Shown here one piece after another: positions 44,568 to 55,443 of a DNA stretch of 64,000 nucleotides. Every line of letters begins with the position of its first letter. Position 1 is the first letter of the stretch. The position numbers were made by a program, and so were the translations under genes. The notes under the pieces are model-generated. The model was not told where the DNA came from, did not search any database, and was given only the letters and a program-made list of their open reading frames with translations. The DNA comes from Bifidobacterium breve (GTDB lineage: Bacteria; Actinomycetota; Acidimicrobiia; Acidimicrobiales; Acidimicrobilacustridaceae): positions 62,001-126,000 of the forward strand of contig CAMCTY010000005.1 in the NCBI GenBank assembly GCA_945878725.1. The letters run 5' to 3'.

Positions 44568-44879
44568 TCAGTCCTGTTGCATCGTGGCCCAGAGGCCATG
44601 TTCGTGAAGACGGAACACGTCGAGCTCGGCCTTCTCCTTCGAACCGCTGGAGACGACGGCACGGCCCTTCTCGTGCACGTCGAGCATCATCCCCTGCGCC
44701 TTTTCGAGGCTGTAACCAAAGAGCTTCTGGAGTACGAAGGTCACGTAACTCATGAGATTGATTGGGTCATTCCAAACGAGAACAACCCAAGGCGTCTCCG
44801 TCTCGGACTCGTGTCCGATGTCGGGTTTGTCGACCTCGACCGGCGCGGTCGATGACGCGCGCGTAGACGAACGCTTCAT
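44568..44879 (-). CDS. clpS: ClpS, Clp protease adaptor
   Basis: A 103-residue N-end-rule adaptor that delivers substrates to ClpA/ClpC with ClpP. After a flexible N-terminal tail, [20 protein letters not shown] and the helix with [16 protein letters not shown] are the ClpS fold; the ND pair in WNDPIN and the later MLDVHEKG bind the N-degron. The ATG at 44879 overlaps the ctaA stop by 4 bases (ATGA), so translation is probably coupled. A longer frame extends upstream antisense of nothing conserved and was not used. Confidence 0.93.
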
Positions 44880-45796
44880 ACCGAAGCCGCCGCTTTGATC
44901 AGTGAGTCGTTCGGTGATTCGAGAGGTCGGGCCCGGAGGCTGAGATGGAATCCGAGCACCGTCATCCAGATCACAACACTCCCGAAGACGTGCAGGATGA
45001 CTAGCCAAGGAGGAACGCCTGTGAAGTACTGGATGTAGCCGATCGCGCCTTGCACGACGATCGCGCCGACGAGGAGGCGCGCGTGGCGATCGACGGACGC
45101 CGGCGCGCCGGTCCTGCGCAGTATGACCAACGTGACGATGGTGAGTGCGAGGAAAATCCAAACAGTCGCGCTGTGTACGCGGGCGACGGCTTCGAGTGAG
45201 AACGAAAGGCGATCGACTTTTTCGTCACCACCGTGGGGGCCGGTGCCAGTCACGATCGTGCCGGTGAGGATGACGGCTGATGCGGCCACGATGAGCACGC
45301 GACTCAGGGCCCGGACATTCGGAGTTACGACGGGCAAGGACGCAACGGAGGCATATCGACCACGTTGGTGGAGTACGACGGCGTTCCAGACGAGCACCAT
45401 CGACAGAACGAAGTGGGCGATCACGAACGGCGGGCGCAGTTCAAACAGAACAGTGAGGCCGCCAAGAATGATCTGACCGATGACGCCGGCGACCAACCCG
45501 AGAGACCACCAGGTGAGGTCCCGGCGCCGGGGCTGGCGAACAAGGGAACCAAGCACGGCCACAATGACGGCGGCGGAGACCAGTCCGGTGATCAGGCGGT
45601 TCACGAATTCGATCATGGCGTGGTACTCGAGCGGGGCGACGAGGCTGTTTTCCTCGCAGGTCGGCCAATCCGAGCAGCCGAGGCCTGATCCGGTCAGCCG
45701 AACGGCCGCGCCAGTCACGATGATGAACACAAGGGCTACCAGCGCGACGAGCGTGATGCGCTGGTAGGCCCGGGGGGAAAGGCGAGGCAGGCGCAC
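44876..45796 (-). CDS. ctaA: Heme A synthase (CtaA/COX15)
   Basis: An approximately 306-residue eight-helix membrane enzyme oxidising heme O to heme A for the aa3-type oxidase. [20 protein letters not shown] has the characteristic extracytoplasmic Cys pair; heme-ligand histidines lie in [22 protein letters not shown] and [10 protein letters not shown]. The start is uncertain: GTG at 45796 places the N-terminus just before the first helix and leaves 77 bases for promoters shared with divergent ctaB; TTG at 45868 would leave only 5 bases. No ribosome-binding site decides it. Confidence 0.9.
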
Positions 45797-45873
45797 GAGT
45801 TGGATCGTACGGGATCGGAGGATCCGGGCCACGATTGTCCGGCTGATGGGGAGCGGCTCTACGATCAAAAGCG

Positions 45874-46770
45874 ATGGAAACCGTCGCGCAAGCCCCTCTC
45901 CGTGCGCGAATTAGCGGTTACGTGGCACTCACGAAACCCCGAATCATCGAGCTCTTGCTTATAACGACCGTCCCGACCATGGTCGTGGCCGAGCAGGGCT
46001 TGCCGCCGATCTGGCTCATCGTGGCCACGGTTCTTGGCGGAACGCTGGCCGCCGGCGGGGCGAACGCCATCAACATGTACGTCGATCGGGACATCGACGC
46101 GATCATGAAACGGACCCGGAACCGCCCGCTCGTCACCGGGCTGATTAGGCCAAGAAACGCCCTTATTTTCGCTATTTCTCTCGAAATCGTCGCATTCGCC
46201 TGGCTGTGGGCCTTCGTCAATTTCCTGAGCGCGGTTCTGGCCGTGGCCGCGTGCCTCTTTTACGTCTTCATCTACACGCTGTGGCTCAAGAGGACGTCGA
46301 AGAGCAACATCGTGATCGGCGGCGCGGCAGGAGCAGCGCCGGTGCTGATCGGTTGGTCGGCGGTCACCAATTCGCTGGCGTGGGCGCCGATTGTGCTTTT
46401 CGCCATCATCTTTTACTGGACGCCGCCGCATTTCTGGGCCCTCGCCATCCGCTACAAGGACGATTATGCGGCCGCTGATGTGCCGATGTTGCCGTCGGTG
46501 GTCTCGCTTCATGAAACGGCCGTGCGAATCCTGATTTACACGGTTTGGCTGTGGTTTCTCACCCTCGTTTTTGCCCCGATTGGGAACATGGGTTGGATCT
46601 ACTGGGTCGCAGCTGGCCTACTGGGCGCGGTTTTCACGGCGTTCGCGGTGCAGCTCCTCCGGGATCCGACCACGAAGCGTGCGATGCGCCTCTTCACGTG
46701 GTCCATCACGTACATCACGCTCCTTTTCGGAGCGATGGCACTCGACCAGCTCGTTCGGTCGGGCCTGTGA
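45874..46770 (+). CDS. ctaB: Protoheme IX farnesyltransferase
   Basis: A 298-residue UbiA-family prenyltransferase making heme O from heme B and farnesyl diphosphate. NMYVDRDIDAIMKRTRNRPL is the first Asp-rich motif that binds the diphosphate through Mg2+, and DDYAAADVPMLPSV is in the second. About nine membrane helices. It is divergent from ctaA and upstream of the oxidase genes, forming the heme A supply for the caa3 enzyme. Confidence 0.95.
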   Translation: METVAQAPLRARISGYVALTKPRIIELLLITTVPTMVVAEQGLPPIWLIVATVLGGTLAAGGANAINMYVDRDIDAIMKRTRNRPLVTGLIRPRNALIFAISLEIVAFAWLWAFVNFLSAVLAVAACLFYVFIYTLWLKRTSKSNIVIGGAAGAAPVLIGWSAVTNSLAWAPIVLFAIIFYWTPPHFWALAIRYKDDYAAADVPMLPSVVSLHETAVRILIYTVWLWFLTLVFAPIGNMGWIYWVAAGLLGAVFTAFAVQLLRDPTTKRAMRLFTWSITYITLLFGAMALDQLVRSGL

Positions 46771-46933
46771 CGCCGAAATCGGTCGATCAAACCTTCCGAT
46801 GGTTTTCTGCGACGCCAGCGCCCATGTGTAAAGTCGAAAGTTGTACTTCCGTCTCCCCGGAGCCGGTCACTCCATGGTCCGCTCCGACGTCTGTCGGCCC
46901 GAGTGCGGTTGTTCGAATGAGGTCCCTTCAAAC

Positions 46934-48505
46934 ATGGCGCTAACCGATACGAGAACCGAGTCCGGCACTGAGGCCACCGAGGCCGCGCACAGTGCCGTTC
47001 CGGCCCCCGTTTCCCTTCTTGGATCCGGCGATCACAAGGCCCTCGGGCTCGTGTATGTCGTCGCTGCATTGCTGTTCGGTGCGGTGGGCTGGATCATTTC
47101 CGCTCTTATCGGCGCCCACTCGCTTGGTTCCGGGACGTTCCTTTCGGAATCAACGGCCGACGGGTTCCTCTCCGGTAGCCGGATCGGCCTCGTTCTGCTT
47201 GTCGGCGTGCCGGTCATGCTCGGTCTCGCGACGTACATCGTCCCGCTTCAGGTCGGTGCCAACACTGTCGCTTTCCCCCGTGCCGCCGCCGCCGCCCTCT
47301 GGACGTGGGTCCTCTCGGGTGGCCTGCTTATCGTGGCCAACGCCATCGACGGAGGCCTCGACGGTGGTCGCGAGCGTGCGGTCGATCTCGGACTTCTTGC
47401 CATTGCTGGCCTTTGTGTGGCGCTTGTGCTTGGTGCGGTTTGCGTGATCACCACGGCGATCGCTCTGCGCACGCCGGGCATGCGGCTTGATCGTGTACCG
47501 CTGTTCACTTGGGCGTTCATTGTCGGCGGTTCGGTGTGGGTCCTCACCCTCCCGATCCTCTTGGGCAACGTCGTTCTGATTTATGTCGATCATCATTACG
47601 GCGCCGGAACATCATTCGGCTCTGCCGGTTCCCAGTGGGCGCAGGTCTCCTGGATTGCCTCGCAACCGCAGGTCTATGCCCTTCTCATCCCAGTCCTCGG
47701 CCTCGTCGCCGACGTGATCGCCACCATCGCTGGCGTGCGGCAACCGAATCGCAACGTGCTGCTCGTCGGCATTGGTGCCTTCGGTGTCCTCAGCATCGGC
47801 GCTTGGGCACAGACGGCCTTCTACCCCGAAGCCCGCAATGAACCGCTTTGGGCCGGGATGGTGCTGCTTATCGTTCTGCCGACACTCGCTGTCGCTGGCG
47901 GCGTCGGAGCGGTCCTCCGTTCCGGAAAGCCCCCGATCAAGAGCCCCTTCCTCCTGTCGATCGTGGCGCTCCTGTTCGTTCTCCTTGCGGTTCTGGTCGG
48001 CGCCCTGGCTGTACTAACCCCGCTCGAACTGCGCGATTCGAGTGCGTTCAACACCGGTCAGTTCGCCGCTGTTCTGGCGGCAGTGATCGCCGGCGCTGCC
48101 GCCGGTGTCACCTACTGGGCCCCAAAGATGACGGGCCGAATCGGTACGGATGCACCAGCGAAACTCAATGTCCTCGTGATCCTCGGTGGCGGAGCGCTTG
48201 CCAGCCTCCCGCTGTTGGTCCTCGGATTCTCGAGCCGCTTCACGGTTCTCGCTGATGCCGGTGATGCCCTTGAGGTGGTCGCCATCCTCGGTGACGGCCT
48301 TCTCGCCCTCGGCGTCATCCTGACCTTGCTCACGCTTCTCGCCGCAACCCGCGGAACGCCGGCCGGCGAGGATCCCTGGGGCACCGGTCAGAGTCTTGAA
48401 TGGGCTTGCGCATCACCGCCGCCGCTCGCCAATTTCGGTGAGCTTCCGGCCATCGTTTCTCCTCAGCCGCTGCTTGATGCAGCCGATTCCTCGAAGGGAG
48501 CCTGA
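46934..48505 (+). CDS. Heme-copper oxidase subunit I homologue lacking all metal ligands
   Basis: A 523-residue polytopic protein related to CtaD. It keeps framework motifs (GDHKALGLVYVVAALLFG, YIVPLQVGANTVAFPR, GMRLDRVPLFTW, QPQVYALLIPVLG, WAPKMTG). Aligned by eye to the intact CtaD at 51412, all six histidines are replaced: His94 to Ser82, His272 to Gln244, His321/322 to Gln293/Thr294, His407 to Gly375 and His409 to Phe377. The cross-link Tyr276 is kept as Tyr248. It cannot bind heme a, heme a3 or CuB in the usual way. The ATG at 46934 removes 31 unconserved residues. It may be a structural, assembly or proton-conducting partner. Confidence 0.85.
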   Translation: MALTDTRTESGTEATEAAHSAVPAPVSLLGSGDHKALGLVYVVAALLFGAVGWIISALIGAHSLGSGTFLSESTADGFLSGSRIGLVLLVGVPVMLGLATYIVPLQVGANTVAFPRAAAAALWTWVLSGGLLIVANAIDGGLDGGRERAVDLGLLAIAGLCVALVLGAVCVITTAIALRTPGMRLDRVPLFTWAFIVGGSVWVLTLPILLGNVVLIYVDHHYGAGTSFGSAGSQWAQVSWIASQPQVYALLIPVLGLVADVIATIAGVRQPNRNVLLVGIGAFGVLSIGAWAQTAFYPEARNEPLWAGMVLLIVLPTLAVAGGVGAVLRSGKPPIKSPFLLSIVALLFVLLAVLVGALAVLTPLELRDSSAFNTGQFAAVLAAVIAGAAAGVTYWAPKMTGRIGTDAPAKLNVLVILGGGALASLPLLVLGFSSRFTVLADAGDALEVVAILGDGLLALGVILTLLTLLAATRGTPAGEDPWGTGQSLEWACASPPPLANFGELPAIVSPQPLLDAADSSKGA

Positions 48506-48507
48506 TC

Positions 48508-49098
48508 ATGTCGTCGGCTCACGCCCTTCCGGCCCCTCCGCTGCAGCGCCCGCGGGTTCTCATGGTCGGCACTGCATTCATGGCGGCCGCGTCGATCATG
48601 GCCATTGTCGGCATGCTCGGCGTTTATCTCGCCCAGCGCGCTGATTTCCTCAGCTCGGGTTCAGTCTGGTTGCCGACCGGGGCCTCGGTTCCGCTGCAGC
48701 AGCCCAACACCATGATGATCACACTGATCATGTCGGTGATCACGATGCAATGGGCCGTCAACGCCATCTCCCGCAACGACCGTGGCCACGCCTACATGGC
48801 GCTCGGACTCACGCTCGTCTTGGGTGCTGCCACGATCGTGATGACGAGCTACCTCTTCACCCTCATGGAACTCGATATCTCGTCGGGACTCCAAGGTGTC
48901 CTCATCTTTTCCATCACCGGGGCACACCTACTGATGCTGATTGTGGCGATGATCTTTGTCGCCCTCATGGCCTTCCGGGCCCTTGGTGGTCAGTTCGCTG
49001 CCCGCCAGCACGACGGCATCTCCGCCGCTGCCCTCTACTGGGACGCAATGGTTGCCGTGTATTCCATCCTCTGGTTCTCCATCTACATCACGAAGTAG
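48508..49098 (+). CDS. Cytochrome c oxidase subunit III-like protein (divergent)
   Basis: A 196-residue five-helix membrane protein resembling heme-copper oxidase subunit III. SITGAHLLMLIVAMIF parallels the TGFHGVHVTIGIIM block of the intact subunit III at 53450, and the C-terminal ALYWDAMVAVYSILWF parallels GLYWHFVDVVWIFIF, but the conserved YWHFVD is YWDAMV. AAGGGAG precedes the ATG and only 2 bases separate it from the ligand-less subunit I homologue, so the two are co-translated partners. Role unknown; it likely forms a complex with that protein. Confidence 0.8.
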   Translation: MSSAHALPAPPLQRPRVLMVGTAFMAAASIMAIVGMLGVYLAQRADFLSSGSVWLPTGASVPLQQPNTMMITLIMSVITMQWAVNAISRNDRGHAYMALGLTLVLGAATIVMTSYLFTLMELDISSGLQGVLIFSITGAHLLMLIVAMIFVALMAFRALGGQFAARQHDGISAAALYWDAMVAVYSILWFSIYITK

Positions 49099-49104
49099 GC
49101 CGCC

Positions 49105-49944
49105 ATGCTCCAATCGCGCATGTTCACTACGGCCTTCCGGTTCTTCGCCGGCATGGCCGTCTTCGCTCTCCTCGCAGCATTCGTGCTGGGTGTCACCAGC
49201 CAGTCCTCCGCACTCGTAGACCGCATTGTCGGTCCGCTCACGCTCGGCTGGAAGGGTGGCATCGGCAACCACCTCGGATACACGTTCTTCGTGGGCCTTT
49301 TCGGTGTTGCCGCTGGCCTCGCCGGTGTGCTCGTGGCCTTCCGCGACGCCGATCCGGAAGCCGAAGCCCAGGTCGTACACACCGAGTCAGTTCCGCTCAC
49401 CCGGGCTCCGTCTGGGGCGAACTTTCTGCCGTCATTGGCCGCCTTCACGTTGATCCTCATGTTCATCGGCATGGGCACCCGTAGCTCAGGCATCACGCTG
49501 GCCAGCCTCGCTGTCATCATCGCCACTGGCTTCATCTGGACTCTTCGCACCTGGGCCGAGCGGGCCACCGGCGACGACACCGTCAACGCCGAGCTCTACC
49601 ACCGCTTCGTCGACCCGCTCCGCACCCCTGTCGTCGCCATCGTGTCGATTGCCGTGGTTGCCATTGGTCTCTCCCGTGTTCTCCTGGCCGTCTCGAAGAC
49701 CGGTTCGACCATCGTGTTCGGTGTCGTCGCACTGCTCTTCTTCGGTGTGGCCACGCTGCTGGCGCTGCGTCCGAAGTCGGGTCGATCCGTCGCCACGGTC
49801 CTCGTGGTCATCGGAGCGATCGCCGTCATAGCGGCCGGTATCGCCGGAGCCGTTGTCGGCGAGCGGGACATCGAGCATCACGAGCCCACTCACGAGGGCG
49901 CGTCGGTTTCGACTGCGGTTCCCGGGACCACGGATCGGGCATGA
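49105..49944 (+). CDS. Polytopic membrane protein of the oxidase-like module
   Basis: A 279-residue protein with about seven hydrophobic helices (roughly 10-30, 57-78, 105-120, 123-142, 173-193, 200-218, 224-250) and a polar C-terminus with HH at the membrane exit (ERDIEHHEPTHEG). A soluble loop around 80-105 lies between helices 2 and 3. I recognise no family. It follows the subunit III-like gene by 6 bases and ends 188 bases before ctaC, so it completes a three-gene unit inserted between ctaB and the true oxidase. It might supply quinol, heme or assembly functions; nothing in sequence proves any. Confidence 0.7.
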   Translation: MLQSRMFTTAFRFFAGMAVFALLAAFVLGVTSQSSALVDRIVGPLTLGWKGGIGNHLGYTFFVGLFGVAAGLAGVLVAFRDADPEAEAQVVHTESVPLTRAPSGANFLPSLAAFTLILMFIGMGTRSSGITLASLAVIIATGFIWTLRTWAERATGDDTVNAELYHRFVDPLRTPVVAIVSIAVVAIGLSRVLLAVSKTGSTIVFGVVALLFFGVATLLALRPKSGRSVATVLVVIGAIAVIAAGIAGAVVGERDIEHHEPTHEGASVSTAVPGTTDRA

Positions 49945-50132: not shown

Positions 50133-51359
50133 ATGCCCCGCCGTTCACTCACAGTGCGCATCTTGCAGGTCGTGACACTTGTTGTCGTCACGTTCTTATT
50201 TGCTGCGCTGATCGCTGCCGCCTTCTTCAATGACGGCAGGCCGCTCACAACACTTTCGCCGTCGGGTCCTTCGTCCGCCAGCATCCAGAAACTCGTCCTC
50301 CCCGTATTCGCAATTGCGGGCGTGGTGTTCGTCCTTGTCTTGGGCGCCGTGCTCACGGTCGCTTGGAAGTTCCGGTCGAAGGACGAAGACGATCCTGAAG
50401 AATTCCCGGAACAGGTGCACGGTCGCACGTTTCTTGAGATCGGCTGGACGATCCTTCCCGCCCTCATTCTCGCCGGCGTCGCCGTTGGCACCGTCACGAC
50501 AATCATCGACCTGAACCGCAAGGAACCCGACTCCATCAACGTTCAGGTCACCGGCCAGCAATGGTGGTGGCAGTACAAGTACGACGTAAACAACGACGGC
50601 AACTTCGATGGCCCCGAAGACATCATCACGGCCACCGAAATGGTTGTTCCTGCCGGACGCCCGATTCAGGTCACGACGACCTCAAACGATGTCATTCACT
50701 CGTACTGGATCCCCGGCCTCAACGGCAAGCGCGATGCGGTTCCCGGTCTCCGGAACCCGCTCAAACTTCAGGCCGACGAACCCGGCATCTATCGCGGCCA
50801 GTGCACCGAGTACTGCGGTCTCTCCCACGCGAATATGCGCATGCTCGTCAGGGCGGTTCCGGCCGGCGATTACGACGCGTGGGTTCGGAACCAGTTGAAG
50901 GATCACGCCGCCGAACCGACCGATCCGAAAGCGATCGAAGGCAAGAAAACATGGCTCGCCCTTTGCGGCCAGTGCCATGTGATCAAGGGCGTCAATGATG
51001 TCAAGGCAAAGACCACCCCGGTCCCCCTCGTTGCCGGTGTGGCTCCGGATCTCACGCATCTCATGACTCGCGGAACGTTCGCGGGTTCAATCTTCAACCT
51101 CTATAACCCGACCGATCCGAACGATCCGAATGTGCTTCTGTCTGCGGGCGATGTCGCCTCGGCGGGTAATCCAGGTGCGGCGCTGACGGGCGGAACAGTT
51201 GCGACCGCCAACGTCAACCGGGTCACTCTTGAGGCTTGGCTGCGCAATGCACCGGCGATGAAGCCGATGTACCCGCAAGGTGGGCGGGGCATGCCCAACC
51301 TGGCACTCACCGAAGATCAAATCGACCAATTGGTCGCCTATCTCGAGACCTTGAACTAG
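50133..51359 (+). CDS. ctaC: Cytochrome c oxidase subunit II with fused cytochrome c (caa3 type)
   Basis: A 408-residue electron-entry subunit. Two N-terminal helices (about 8-30 and 50-72) anchor a CuA cupredoxin domain whose ligands include His in VIHSYWIPG and the CTEYCGLSHANM cluster (Cys224, Cys228, His232, Met235). A C-terminal class I cytochrome c domain has CGQCH at 278-282 and a likely Met ligand in GRGMPNLAL. The fusion defines a caa3-type oxidase. GAGGAGAG precedes the ATG. The 188-base gap upstream holds no gene but probably the promoter. Confidence 0.96.
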   Translation: MPRRSLTVRILQVVTLVVVTFLFAALIAAAFFNDGRPLTTLSPSGPSSASIQKLVLPVFAIAGVVFVLVLGAVLTVAWKFRSKDEDDPEEFPEQVHGRTFLEIGWTILPALILAGVAVGTVTTIIDLNRKEPDSINVQVTGQQWWWQYKYDVNNDGNFDGPEDIITATEMVVPAGRPIQVTTTSNDVIHSYWIPGLNGKRDAVPGLRNPLKLQADEPGIYRGQCTEYCGLSHANMRMLVRAVPAGDYDAWVRNQLKDHAAEPTDPKAIEGKKTWLALCGQCHVIKGVNDVKAKTTPVPLVAGVAPDLTHLMTRGTFAGSIFNLYNPTDPNDPNVLLSAGDVASAGNPGAALTGGTVATANVNRVTLEAWLRNAPAMKPMYPQGGRGMPNLALTEDQIDQLVAYLETLN

Positions 51360-51411: not shown

Positions 51412-53457
51412 ATGGCACTCACTGAATCCCGACCTCTCGCCCTTACATCTGGCGATGTCGACACCGTTTACAAGCCGGCCGGAGTCTTCACCCGGCCGAA
51501 GTCCGGTGCCACCGGTTGGAAGTCGTGGTTGACAACTGTCGATCACAAAAAGATCGGCATCATGTACGGCGCCGCGGCCATTTTCTTCTTCGTCATCGGC
51601 GGCATTGAGGCCCTCCTCATCCGTGTTCAGTTGTGGGCACCGCGTGGCACGCTGCTTAGCGCCAACCTGTACAACCAGGTCTTCACGATGCATGGCACCA
51701 CGATGATTTTCCTCGTGGTCATGCCGATTGGTGCGGCGTTCGCTAACTATCTGATGCCGTTGCAGATCGGTGCCCGCGACGTCGCCTATCCCCGGATCAA
51801 CGCCTTCAGCTTCTGGGCGTTTCTCTTCGGCGGCGTTTTCCTGAACTCCAGCTGGTTGCTCGGCGGCGGTGCTGATGGTGGCTGGTTCAACTACGCACCG
51901 AACAACGGCGTCATCTTCTCGCCAACGAACGGCATCGACTTCTGGAACCTCGGTCTGATCATCACGGGCGTTGCGTCATTGGCGGGCGCAGTCAACCTCA
52001 TCGTGACGGTCTTGAACATGCGTGCGCCCGGAATGACGCTCATGAAGATGCCGATCTTCACGTGGATGACGCTCGTGACGCAGTTCCTCTTGCTATTCGC
52101 CATCCCGGTCCTTACCGCCGCGCAGATCCTGCTCATGATGGATCGCCTCTTTGACGCCAACTTCTTCAATGTCGCAAAGGGAGCCAACCCGCTTCTTTGG
52201 CAGCACCTCTTCTGGATCTTCGGTCACCCTGAGGTGTACCTGATGATTCTCCCGGCATTCGGAATCGTGTCGGAAATTCTCCCGACCTTCGCCCGCAAGC
52301 CGATCTTCGGTTACCCCTTCATCGTGTTTTCTGGCATCGCCATCGGTTTCATGGGCTGGGGCGTGTGGGCCCATCACATGTTCGTTTCCGGCATCGGCCC
52401 GATCACGGTAACGACCTTCGCTCTCACCACGATGTTCATTGCGGTTCCGACCGGCGTGAAGATTCTGAACTGGGTCGCCACGATGTGGGGCGGAAAACTC
52501 CAATTCACGAGCCCGATGCTGTTCTCAATCGGTCTCGTCACGATGTTCACCATCGGTGGCCTGTCCGGCGTGACGCACTCCGTCGCACCTGCCGACACGC
52601 AGCAGACTGACACCTATTACATCGTGGCGCATTTCCATTATGTGCTCTTCGGTGGAGCGTTCTTCGGCTTCATGGCCGGCTTCTACTTCTACTGGCCGAA
52701 GGTGTTCGGTTACCTGCTCAACGAGAAGTTGGGCAAGGCCAACTTCTGGTTGATGCTGTTGGGCTTTAACCTCACGTTCGCCCCGATGCACATCCTCGGA
52801 CTCCAAGGCATGAGCCGTCGTATCTACACGTACGACGCTGGCTACGGCTTTGAAGTTTGGAACAAGGTCGCCACCATTGGTGCCTTCATCCTGGCGTCCA
52901 GCATCGCGTTGTTCATCTTCAACATGTTCTACAGCAAGTCGAAAGCCAAGAATCTTCCGGCTCCCGGCGCCGATCCGTGGGATGCGCGCACGATCGAGTG
53001 GATGATCCCGTCGCCAACTCCCGAGTACAACTTCGATCCGATCCCGACCGTCTCGCGCGTCGATGACTTCTGGTATCGCAAGTACGGCGAGACGAAGGAC
53101 GGCAAGCTCGTCCGCATCGCAGCGACTGACGACGTTGTGCAGAAACTCAGTGATGGCAAGCACATCCATCTGCCGTCGCCTTCGTACTGGCCAATCGTCC
53201 TCGCTTTTGGCATGCCAATCGCCGCCTATGGGCTGATCTTCAACATGTGGCTCTGTCTCGTCGGCGGGATCATCATCGTCGGAGGTCTTTACGGATGGGT
53301 TCTTGAGCCGCCGGATGATCCCGAAGCGTCACACGACGATGACGGAACCGACACCCATGCCTCCGATGGCGGCGATGCCGCCGTGACCGAAATATCGGGA
53401 TCAGTCGATCAGCCGAACGAACTGGACCCAGCGAAGGAGGCCGAGACCGTTGGCTGA
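51412..53457 (+). CDS. ctaD: Cytochrome c oxidase subunit I
   Basis: A 681-residue catalytic subunit reducing O2 to water and pumping protons. Heme a ligands His94 (FTMHGTTMIF) and His409, heme a3 ligand His407 (AHFHYVLFGG), CuB ligands His272 (GHPEVY) and His321/322 (WAHHMF) and the cross-linked Tyr276 are all present, so it is an A-type enzyme. The 12-helix core is followed by extra helices and an acidic C-terminal tail (about 630-681), perhaps a fused part of subunit III or an actinobacterial extension. It overlaps ctaE by 8 bases. Confidence 0.97.
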   Translation: MALTESRPLALTSGDVDTVYKPAGVFTRPKSGATGWKSWLTTVDHKKIGIMYGAAAIFFFVIGGIEALLIRVQLWAPRGTLLSANLYNQVFTMHGTTMIFLVVMPIGAAFANYLMPLQIGARDVAYPRINAFSFWAFLFGGVFLNSSWLLGGGADGGWFNYAPNNGVIFSPTNGIDFWNLGLIITGVASLAGAVNLIVTVLNMRAPGMTLMKMPIFTWMTLVTQFLLLFAIPVLTAAQILLMMDRLFDANFFNVAKGANPLLWQHLFWIFGHPEVYLMILPAFGIVSEILPTFARKPIFGYPFIVFSGIAIGFMGWGVWAHHMFVSGIGPITVTTFALTTMFIAVPTGVKILNWVATMWGGKLQFTSPMLFSIGLVTMFTIGGLSGVTHSVAPADTQQTDTYYIVAHFHYVLFGGAFFGFMAGFYFYWPKVFGYLLNEKLGKANFWLMLLGFNLTFAPMHILGLQGMSRRIYTYDAGYGFEVWNKVATIGAFILASSIALFIFNMFYSKSKAKNLPAPGADPWDARTIEWMIPSPTPEYNFDPIPTVSRVDDFWYRKYGETKDGKLVRIAATDDVVQKLSDGKHIHLPSPSYWPIVLAFGMPIAAYGLIFNMWLCLVGGIIIVGGLYGWVLEPPDDPEASHDDDGTDTHASDGGDAAVTEISGSVDQPNELDPAKEAETVG

Positions 53458-54082
53458 AGCACTCACGGCCCGCGAGAGCATTAAGGCAGCTGACGCCCAT
53501 GCTCCTTCGGCGCATATTGAACACGACACCAACACCGGCATCTCCAACACCAAGTTGGGCATGTGGCTCTTTCTCGCCTCAGAATGCCTGCTCTTCGGTG
53601 GACTAATCACGACGTACCTGCTTTACAAGCGTCCGCTTGAAGGTCCGACTCCGGAGGAAATCTTCGACATTCCGTTCACGTCGACGTCTTCGTTCGTGCT
53701 CCTCATGAGCTCGCTCACGATGGTGCTCGCAGTGTCGGCGATTGAGCGCGGCGACCATGAGCGTCTCCGCATCTGGATCGGCGCCACTGCTCTGCTCGGC
53801 GCAACATTCATCGCCGGCCAGATCTACGAGTTCACGGTGTTCGTTCGTGAAGGTCTCGGTTTCACCACGAGCCGCTTCAGCTCGGCGTTCTACACGCTGA
53901 CCGGATTCCACGGAGTCCACGTCACCATCGGCATCATCATGCTGATGTCGCTCGTGCTGCTTTCTCTGCGTGGCAAGCTTCCCGAGCACCGTTCCGAAAC
54001 CGTCGAGATCGTCGGCCTTTACTGGCACTTCGTCGACGTTGTCTGGATCTTCATCTTCGCTGTCGTCTACCTGGTTCCGTAG
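53450..54082 (+). CDS. ctaE: Cytochrome c oxidase subunit III
   Basis: A 210-residue five-helix subunit III. GMWLFLASECLLFGGL, TGFHGVHVTIGIIML and GLYWHFVDVVWIFIF are family motifs. The start is TTG at 53450 inside the end of ctaD, with a perfect AAGGAGG at 53434-53440 upstream, so a strong Shine-Dalgarno compensates for the weak start codon. It is translated right after ctaD and before ctaF, in the true oxidase operon. Confidence 0.96.
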   Translation: MAEALTARESIKAADAHAPSAHIEHDTNTGISNTKLGMWLFLASECLLFGGLITTYLLYKRPLEGPTPEEIFDIPFTSTSSFVLLMSSLTMVLAVSAIERGDHERLRIWIGATALLGATFIAGQIYEFTVFVREGLGFTTSRFSSAFYTLTGFHGVHVTIGIIMLMSLVLLSLRGKLPEHRSETVEIVGLYWHFVDVVWIFIFAVVYLVP

Positions 54083-54090
54083 GAGTCCCG

Positions 54091-54447
54091 ATGACCCTCA
54101 CTTCGCACGATCCAATTCCCGCATCAAATCTCGACGGAGCTGTCGAGGACTACTCGCGCGACAAGGTGTACGTCCTTACGGCGTTGTTCCTTGCCGCCGT
54201 GACTGTTCTCGAGGTTCTCACCTACGCCTATCCGGACTTCCCGGTCTGGGCGGACAACCTGTTGATCCCGGTTCTGATGATCATGATGGCCGTGAAGTTC
54301 TTCACCGTTCTCTACATCTTCATGCATCTCAAGTTCGACAAGCCCATTCTCACCTGGGTCTTCTACGCGGGTCTTGTACTTGCGGTGCTCGTCTATCTGG
54401 CCATGCTTTCGACCTTCCGCATCTGGTGGCCCGAGAGTCACAGCTGA
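54091..54447 (+). CDS. ctaF: Cytochrome c oxidase subunit IV, prokaryotic type
   Basis: A 118-residue three-helix protein of the prokaryotic cytochrome c oxidase subunit IV (COX4_pro) family. LTALFLAAVTVLEVLTYAYP, MMAVKFFTVLYIFMHLKFD and FYAGLVLAVLVYLAML are the helices; KFFTVLYIFMHLKFD is the usual conserved block. It follows ctaE by 8 bases. It stabilises the oxidase complex in the membrane. Confidence 0.88.
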   Translation: MTLTSHDPIPASNLDGAVEDYSRDKVYVLTALFLAAVTVLEVLTYAYPDFPVWADNLLIPVLMIMMAVKFFTVLYIFMHLKFDKPILTWVFYAGLVLAVLVYLAMLSTFRIWWPESHS

Positions 54448-54522: not shown

Positions 54523-55443
54523 GTGAGCTCGATGATCGCCAGCGCTATGCCAGAGTTCGCTGCCCATTGGGAAGTGTGGGCATTGTCGCTCGCCATTGTG
54601 CTTGGCGGTCTGTACGTAACTCGCGCGATCGGGCCAAAGGTTGTGGCGCCGGGCGAGCAGGTCGTATCGAGGCGCCAGATTTTCTCGTTCTCCCTTGCGG
54701 TGGTGTTCATGACTGCGGTCGCGATTTGGCCTCTGCATGACATCTCCGAACAGCGTCTCTACAGCGCGCACATGTTCCAGCATCTGGTGCTGACCCTCAT
54801 TGTCCCTCCGCTGTTTTTGCTCTCCTGCCCGAAGTGGCTCGCCGATCTCGTCGTTGGTTCCGATGGGCGGGTCTGGCACATCACGAAGCGACTCGCCGCT
54901 CCGCTCGTGGCGTGGGCGATCTTCAACGCGTACAACCTCCTCAGCCACATGCAACCCTTCGTGAATACCGCAGCGTCGAATGGGCCGTTCCACTTCGGGG
55001 CGCATGTCCTCTTCGTTCTCACTGCTTTACTCATGTGGGTCCCGGTGTGTGGTCCATGGCCGGAACTGCGGCTTTCGCTACCCGGTCAGATGATCTATTT
55101 GTTCGCGCAATCGATCATCCCCACTCTTCCGGCGGCGTGGCTCGCCAATTCCTCAAACGTGGTTTACGACTCCTACGACCAACCGATTCGGTTGTTCGGC
55201 ATCTCCGCCCTCAACGATCAGACGGCCGCCGGTCTCATCATGAAGGTGGCCGAAGTCGCGTATCTCTGGGTCCTGATCACCGTGATGTTCTTCAAGTGGG
55301 CGGCACGTCACCAGGAAGCGGAACGACAGGGCCTGTTTCTGACTGAATCCGAGATCCGCGATTGGGAAGCTGGCGGCAAAGGCGGGCTCTCCGGATCCCC
55401 GGTCGCCGATGCCAGCGCCGAACCTCCGTCTACCCGGAACTAG
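54523..55443 (+). CDS. ctaG: Cytochrome c oxidase assembly protein CtaG (Caa3_CtaG family)
   Basis: A 306-residue membrane protein with about seven helices of the Caa3_CtaG family, which helps insert copper or assemble caa3 oxidases. SAHMFQHLVLTLIVPPLFLL, HMQPFVNTAASNGPFHFGAH and QSIIPTLPAAWLANSS are conserved, with several His suited to metal binding. The likely start is GTG at 54523. The 3' end abuts the stop of the convergent ABC permease gene directly. Its place behind ctaCDEF matches the role. Confidence 0.9.
   Translation: MSSMIASAMPEFAAHWEVWALSLAIVLGGLYVTRAIGPKVVAPGEQVVSRRQIFSFSLAVVFMTAVAIWPLHDISEQRLYSAHMFQHLVLTLIVPPLFLLSCPKWLADLVVGSDGRVWHITKRLAAPLVAWAIFNAYNLLSHMQPFVNTAASNGPFHFGAHVLFVLTALLMWVPVCGPWPELRLSLPGQMIYLFAQSIIPTLPAAWLANSSNVVYDSYDQPIRLFGISALNDQTAAGLIMKVAEVAYLWVLITVMFFKWAARHQEAERQGLFLTESEIRDWEAGGKGGLSGSPVADASAEPPSTRN

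Follow-up and report, generated by a model that had tools for sequence, protein, structure and literature searches.

The window, meaning the whole 64,000-nucleotide stretch of DNA analyzed, carries a cytochrome oxidase locus with the heme A synthase gene ctaA (44876–45868, minus strand) and, oriented divergently from it, a conserved operon on the plus strand that starts with the heme O synthase gene ctaB (45874–46770). A caa3 oxidase is encoded by ctaC (50133–51359, plus strand; CuA domain and fused cytochrome c), ctaD (51412–53457, plus strand; intact subunit I with all six histidines), ctaE (53450–54082, plus strand; subunit III), and ctaF (54091–54447, plus strand; subunit IV, COX4_pro), followed by ctaG (54523–55443, plus strand) of the CuB assembly factor family. 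Between ctaB and ctaC, three further plus-strand genes were found. The first encodes a protein of 523 aa with the heme-copper oxidase fold and no heme or CuB ligand (46934–48505), hereafter the inert subunit I. The second encodes a subunit III of 196 aa (48508–49098), which matches the COX3 family (PF00510, 56.8 bits against a cut-off of 23.8, E 4e-15) and groups with aa3 CtaE. The third gene product, X (49105–49944; 279 aa), combines a CtaF-like N-terminal half with the three-helix half of a membrane cupredoxin of caa3 operons. No dedicated CuA subunit II was encoded in this I-III-X block; the operon has a single subunit II gene, ctaC, which lies immediately before the caa3 ctaD.

The two COX1 and two COX3 genes of this locus are the only ones found in the genome to which the window belongs (93% complete). 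The genome also encodes SURF1; a replacement of SURF1 was therefore rejected. A partnership with alternative complex III was rejected as well: no member of its NrfD family was found in the genome, which instead encodes a bc complex. The latter (contig C7, 3482–7065) differs from the usual actinobacterial QcrCAB: its cytochrome b is split, and it further comprises a Rieske protein and a cytochrome c that is diheme, with two CxxCH motifs.

The open reading frame of the inert subunit I is intact. It spans 46841–48505 when started from TTG; an ATG at 46934 opens MALTDTR..., and this start position is conserved in homologues. The protein scored 137.5 bits on the COX1 profile (PF00115), whose cut-off is 34.8 (E 7.6e-40), and its best PDB match was the mycobacterial aa3 CtaD (6hwh_V, E 5e-53). 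The NCBIfam model of the aa3-type subunit I of actinobacteria (NF050116) scored 196.9 bits, 880 being required. A preliminary description of this DNA had recognized an oxidase subunit I homologue in an open frame and had proposed structure prediction as a check. Both identifications held, and the AlphaFold model (40 sequences) showed the twelve-helix COX1 fold with high confidence (pLDDT 90.3, pTM 0.91; query TM-score 0.78–0.86 against COX1 chains). The top Foldseek matches were CtaD of C. glutamicum and of mycobacteria (TM-score 0.83–0.86); the closest structures are thus CtaD of the actinobacterial bcc-aa3 supercomplex. No extra domain was present in the protein.

The ligand positions were read from the alignment to 6hwh_V and from a MAFFT alignment with the intact CtaD. 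Ser82 (codon 47177–47179, plus strand) occupies the low-spin heme a histidine position of TM2, and Gln244 (47663–47665, plus strand) the CuB histidine position of TM6, where SQPQVY replaces GHPEVY. Gln293 and Thr294 (47810–47815, plus strand) stand at the CuB His-His positions of TM7. The HFH motif of TM10 is replaced by Gln376-Phe377-Ala378 (48059–48067, plus strand), Gln376 being the heme a3 position and Ala378 the heme a position. The six positions thus read S, Q, Q, T, Q, and A. The preliminary description had likewise stated that all six metal-binding histidines were replaced, and had allowed that a proper alignment might restore them; neither alignment placed a histidine at any of these positions. 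Its assignment of Gly375 and Phe377 as the TM10 positions has to be corrected to Gln376 and Ala378, a one-residue register shift that is immaterial because neither register yields a histidine. Glu286 (now Gln246), the propionate arginine pair, and the D- and K-channel residues were also missing, and the active-site tyrosine was retained as Tyr248.

This pattern is widely shared. None of the six histidines was present in 76 of 105 distinct homologues. The CuB histidine of TM6 and the first one of TM7 were absent from all 105, and a histidine aligned with the second CuB position of TM7 in three. All three heme histidines were kept in seven copies and the low-spin pair in six. The D-channel aspartate position was occupied across the 105 homologues by T, S, A, R, G, N, or Q, and the K-channel lysine position by L, V, F, I, or A. 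Since 76 of the homologues have lost every ligand while the CuB histidines are kept in a comparison set of 118 active neighbor proteins, the ligand loss, as judged from these alignments, is beyond chance.

Most of 60 relatives carry a homologue of the inert subunit I in this operon position, as do 80 loci from named records, which include an isolate, Acidimicrobiia bacterium EGI L10123 at locus L142, and a single-cell genome. The titles of these records are mostly Acidimicrobiia, Acidimicrobiales, Microthrix, or just actinobacteria, and the few titles from other groups look misassigned; contigs of the window's genus recur among them under Microthrix or Microthrixaceae titles. The order ctaB-[I-III-X]-ctaC-ctaD-ctaE-ctaF-ctaG was conserved across Acidimicrobiales wherever the contig allows, with one exception. 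In that genome (G021, 72% complete; loci L254 on contig C279 and L041 on contig C362) ctaB is followed directly by the genes of subunit III and X, and subunit I sits on another contig, which reflects either relocation or an assembly mixture. Among 40 genomes of the order searched, the module was present in all 20 with a caa3 CtaD (61–79% identity): 17 were found via the X search, and G225, G205, and G209 were added separately. When X was searched in 10 of the 20 genomes without a caa3 CtaD, no match was better than E 6e-5. Most of these genomes are metagenome assemblies, and the co-occurrence counts are not phylogenetically independent. A deep-branching copy in G225 (locus L231, 10054–13427) has its own ligand pattern, HYMWSEQH, and lies about 5 kb from the caa3 operon rather than adjoining it.

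The dN/dS values of the inert subunit I, calculated by the Nei–Gojobori method for fifteen pairs, were 0.06–0.35, compared with 0.05–0.24 for CtaD; within the same genome pairs they were about 1.1–2.4 times those of CtaD. For the window copy and its closest homologue, the value was 0.15. The inert subunit I evolves faster than CtaD (mean corrected distance 1.23 versus 0.34), and this is the one observation in favor of a pseudogene or an alignment error. We nevertheless rejected that explanation and consider it hardly credible: the frames of the homologues are intact, without internal stops in the operon slot, dN/dS is well below 1, the alignment and the AlphaFold fold are sound, and the gene is present both in a cultured isolate and in a single-cell genome. 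To judge from these substitution patterns, the inert subunit I is clearly constrained in spite of its rate. The preliminary description had argued for selection on a non-catalytic membrane protein rather than decay, and had suggested a survey of other Acidimicrobiia and dN/dS estimates. Open homologues occupy the same slot across Acidimicrobiales with dN/dS in the range of purifying selection, so its reading is supported and the gene is not in decay; ligand loss is shared among them, and scattered, frameshifted homologues, which would have pointed to pseudogenes, were not found.

In the tree of subunit I, with CyoB of E. coli and Azospirillum as the outgroup, the inert proteins formed one clade (100/100) on the aa3 side (99/97), apart from caa3 (99/100); their exact position as sister to the actinobacterial aa3 proteins was weakly supported (95/38). 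Duplication of the neighboring caa3 ctaD was thus rejected as the origin. In an independent tree, subunit III likewise fell into a single clade with full support on the aa3 side, and its internal branching nearly matched that of subunit I; the complex was therefore inherited as a unit. The ancestor of the I-III-X unit is an aa3-type oxidase, and the unit was taken over by the caa3 operon.

The N-terminal half of X resembles both CtaF and the C-terminal extension of the caa3 CtaD. A profile of X matched CtaF proteins of aa3 clusters at 47–84 bits, and Pfam PF12270 (CtaF/Cyt_c_ox_IV) did not match the X protein of the window. AlphaFold modeled X with modest confidence (pLDDT 75, pTM 0.50), and the structure matches of this model are only a hint: the top two, 7q21_F and 8hcr_H, were weak (E 0.3–0.6) and were taken as CtaF from chain length. 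For the C-terminal half, the match is a protein with predicted membrane helices and a type-1 copper cupredoxin domain, whose gene follows ctaG in the caa3 operons of other actinobacterial classes. Such genes occur at loci L218 (5518–6213), L221 (6845–7831), L219 (3954–5045), and L220 (158–1957); some of their products carry a tandem pair of cupredoxin domains, and the protein is possibly an electron or copper donor of the caa3 oxidase. By its two halves, the X fusion would link the aa3-like and caa3 complexes.

The type-1 copper cupredoxin domain was absent from X of the window and present in early-branching X proteins. In five early-branching loci (L044, L048, L049, L052, and L053), X ends in a cupredoxin with His-Cys-His-Met ligands, and subunit I keeps the TM2 histidine and the TM10 HxH and has no CuB histidine. 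At L231, X contains a cupredoxin and subunit I only the two heme a histidines; at L134, the heme ligands are kept and the cupredoxin is gone. Because heme histidines persist in the early-branching and in some other copies, and X of the earliest ones carries a cupredoxin with type-1 copper, the cofactors were lost stepwise, CuB first. The X proteins of L172 (4428–5546), L174 (8020–9138), and L054 (6737–7861) carry an extra C-terminal domain without copper ligands, possibly a dead cupredoxin. A TlpA/thioredoxin-like gene (WCxPC) lies between X and ctaC at L052 (7634–8250), L053 (7524–8180), and L049 (7500–8060) and is missing from the operon of the window.

Evolutionary distances were compared over 54 operons with correction for ctaA and ctaB. 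The distances of the inert subunit I correlated with those of X (0.71), CtaD (0.70), CtaC (0.69), and subunit III (0.66), the CtaC–CtaD reference being 0.73, and less with those of CtaB (0.47) and CtaA (0.25). The module thus seems to track CtaC and CtaD rather than heme synthesis, which is supportive only, because operon neighbors share history and the correction by two control genes may be incomplete. The best-kept regions of the inert subunit I include the cytoplasmic termini and loops 2–3, 4–5, and 10–11; the least-kept are most periplasmic loops and TM8–12. Conserved cytoplasmic loops alone identify no binding face, since they are also among the best-conserved parts of active oxidases. 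Because cytochrome c and subunit II attach to the periplasmic face of the oxidase, the conserved parts can be read as not being those of electron entry.

Taken at the level of sequence, the data show an oxidase fold, aa3-type descent, loss of all ligands, purifying selection, and strict linkage to caa3. We propose that I-III-X is probably what remains, without cofactors, of an aa3-type oxidase, and that it serves the caa3 oxidase as a permanent membrane annex with no redox role, with which the enzyme would be physically associated. Subunits I, III, and X would form one subcomplex that binds the caa3 enzyme, and perhaps the bc complex as well, and would hold, position, or stabilize it, in a pairing like that of heme-free CydB with CydA. 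In the proposed course of events, an aa3 complex would have lost its CuA subunit II and the CuB site, while the heme sites persisted for a time together with a membrane cupredoxin that had become joined to the CtaF subunit; these would then have been lost, leaving the scaffold. As a general statement, it is quite possible, if still tentative, that in Acidimicrobiales a complete aa3-like complex without cofactors is a stable structural partner of the caa3 oxidase, and that the steps by which its heme and copper were lost are preserved in living relatives. The three-gene inactive complex, its aa3-side descent, and the stepwise loss of ligands had been missed in the preliminary description.

An unlikely alternative is that I-III-X acts as a transient template or chaperone of caa3 assembly, for example by holding CtaE or CtaC or by acting at heme A insertion, and is absent from the mature enzyme. 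The location of the module between ctaA/ctaB and ctaC–ctaG and its occurrence only with caa3 would fit such a factor; however, the usual factors SURF1, CtaA, CtaB, and CtaG are available, a complete set of subunits I, III, and IV under strong selection would be a costly chaperone, and the distances fit those of CtaA and CtaB less well than those of CtaC and CtaD. We consider it rather improbable that the module has a separate function, such as carrying ions or small molecules or sensing at the membrane, and is merely co-expressed with respiration. Polar residues do recur at former ligand sites (glutamine at the first CuB position of TM7 in 77 of 105 homologues and at another former ligand position in 62 of 105), so the pocket may bind something; yet the strict linkage to caa3, the X fusion, and the covarying distances point to the caa3 enzyme, the protein has gained no domain, and the channel aspartate and lysine are lost. 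Electron transfer by a module that is still redox-active through other cofactors is very improbable. The heme histidines of early-branching copies and the type-1 copper cupredoxin mostly found in their X proteins make this reading plausible for those copies only, and it is opposed by the loss of all six histidines in the window and in most homologues and by an X protein of the window without cupredoxin.

Few enzymes have been studied as thoroughly as the heme-copper oxidases, whose subunit I counts as the catalytic core by definition. No description of a protein like the inert subunit I was found in the open papers searched. The actinobacterial bcc-aa3 oxidase (CtaD, CtaE, and CtaF) resembles the module in structure (TM-score 0.86 to C. 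glutamicum CtaD), in aa3-side phylogeny, in the C-terminal DPWG...LEW..SPPP..NF tail, and in the CtaF-like partner X. In contrast to it, the module lacks heme and CuB ligands, the D and K channels, and a CuA subunit II of its own; it is located in a caa3 operon, and its X has an extra three-helix half. The adjoining caa3 oxidase (CtaC–CtaG) shares the operon and the superfamily with the module, whereas its CtaD has the full set of ligands and falls into a different clade. The membrane cupredoxin encoded after ctaG is homologous to the C-terminal half of X, and early-branching X proteins share its copper domain; unlike X, it is not fused to CtaF and has no link to a dead subunit I, and X of the window has lost the copper domain. 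CydB of cytochrome bd (PMC8413341) sets a precedent, as a protein without heme that is paired with a catalytic subunit; it differs in its unrelated fold and in that its association with the active enzyme is proved, while that of I-III-X is inferred.

A conserved lineage of metal-free subunits I, III, and IV shows that a scaffold role is selectable apart from catalysis, and the graded loss of ligands among living organisms makes the separation of catalysis and scaffold testable there. COX1 searches count these inert genes as oxidases, and annotations based on them call for caution.
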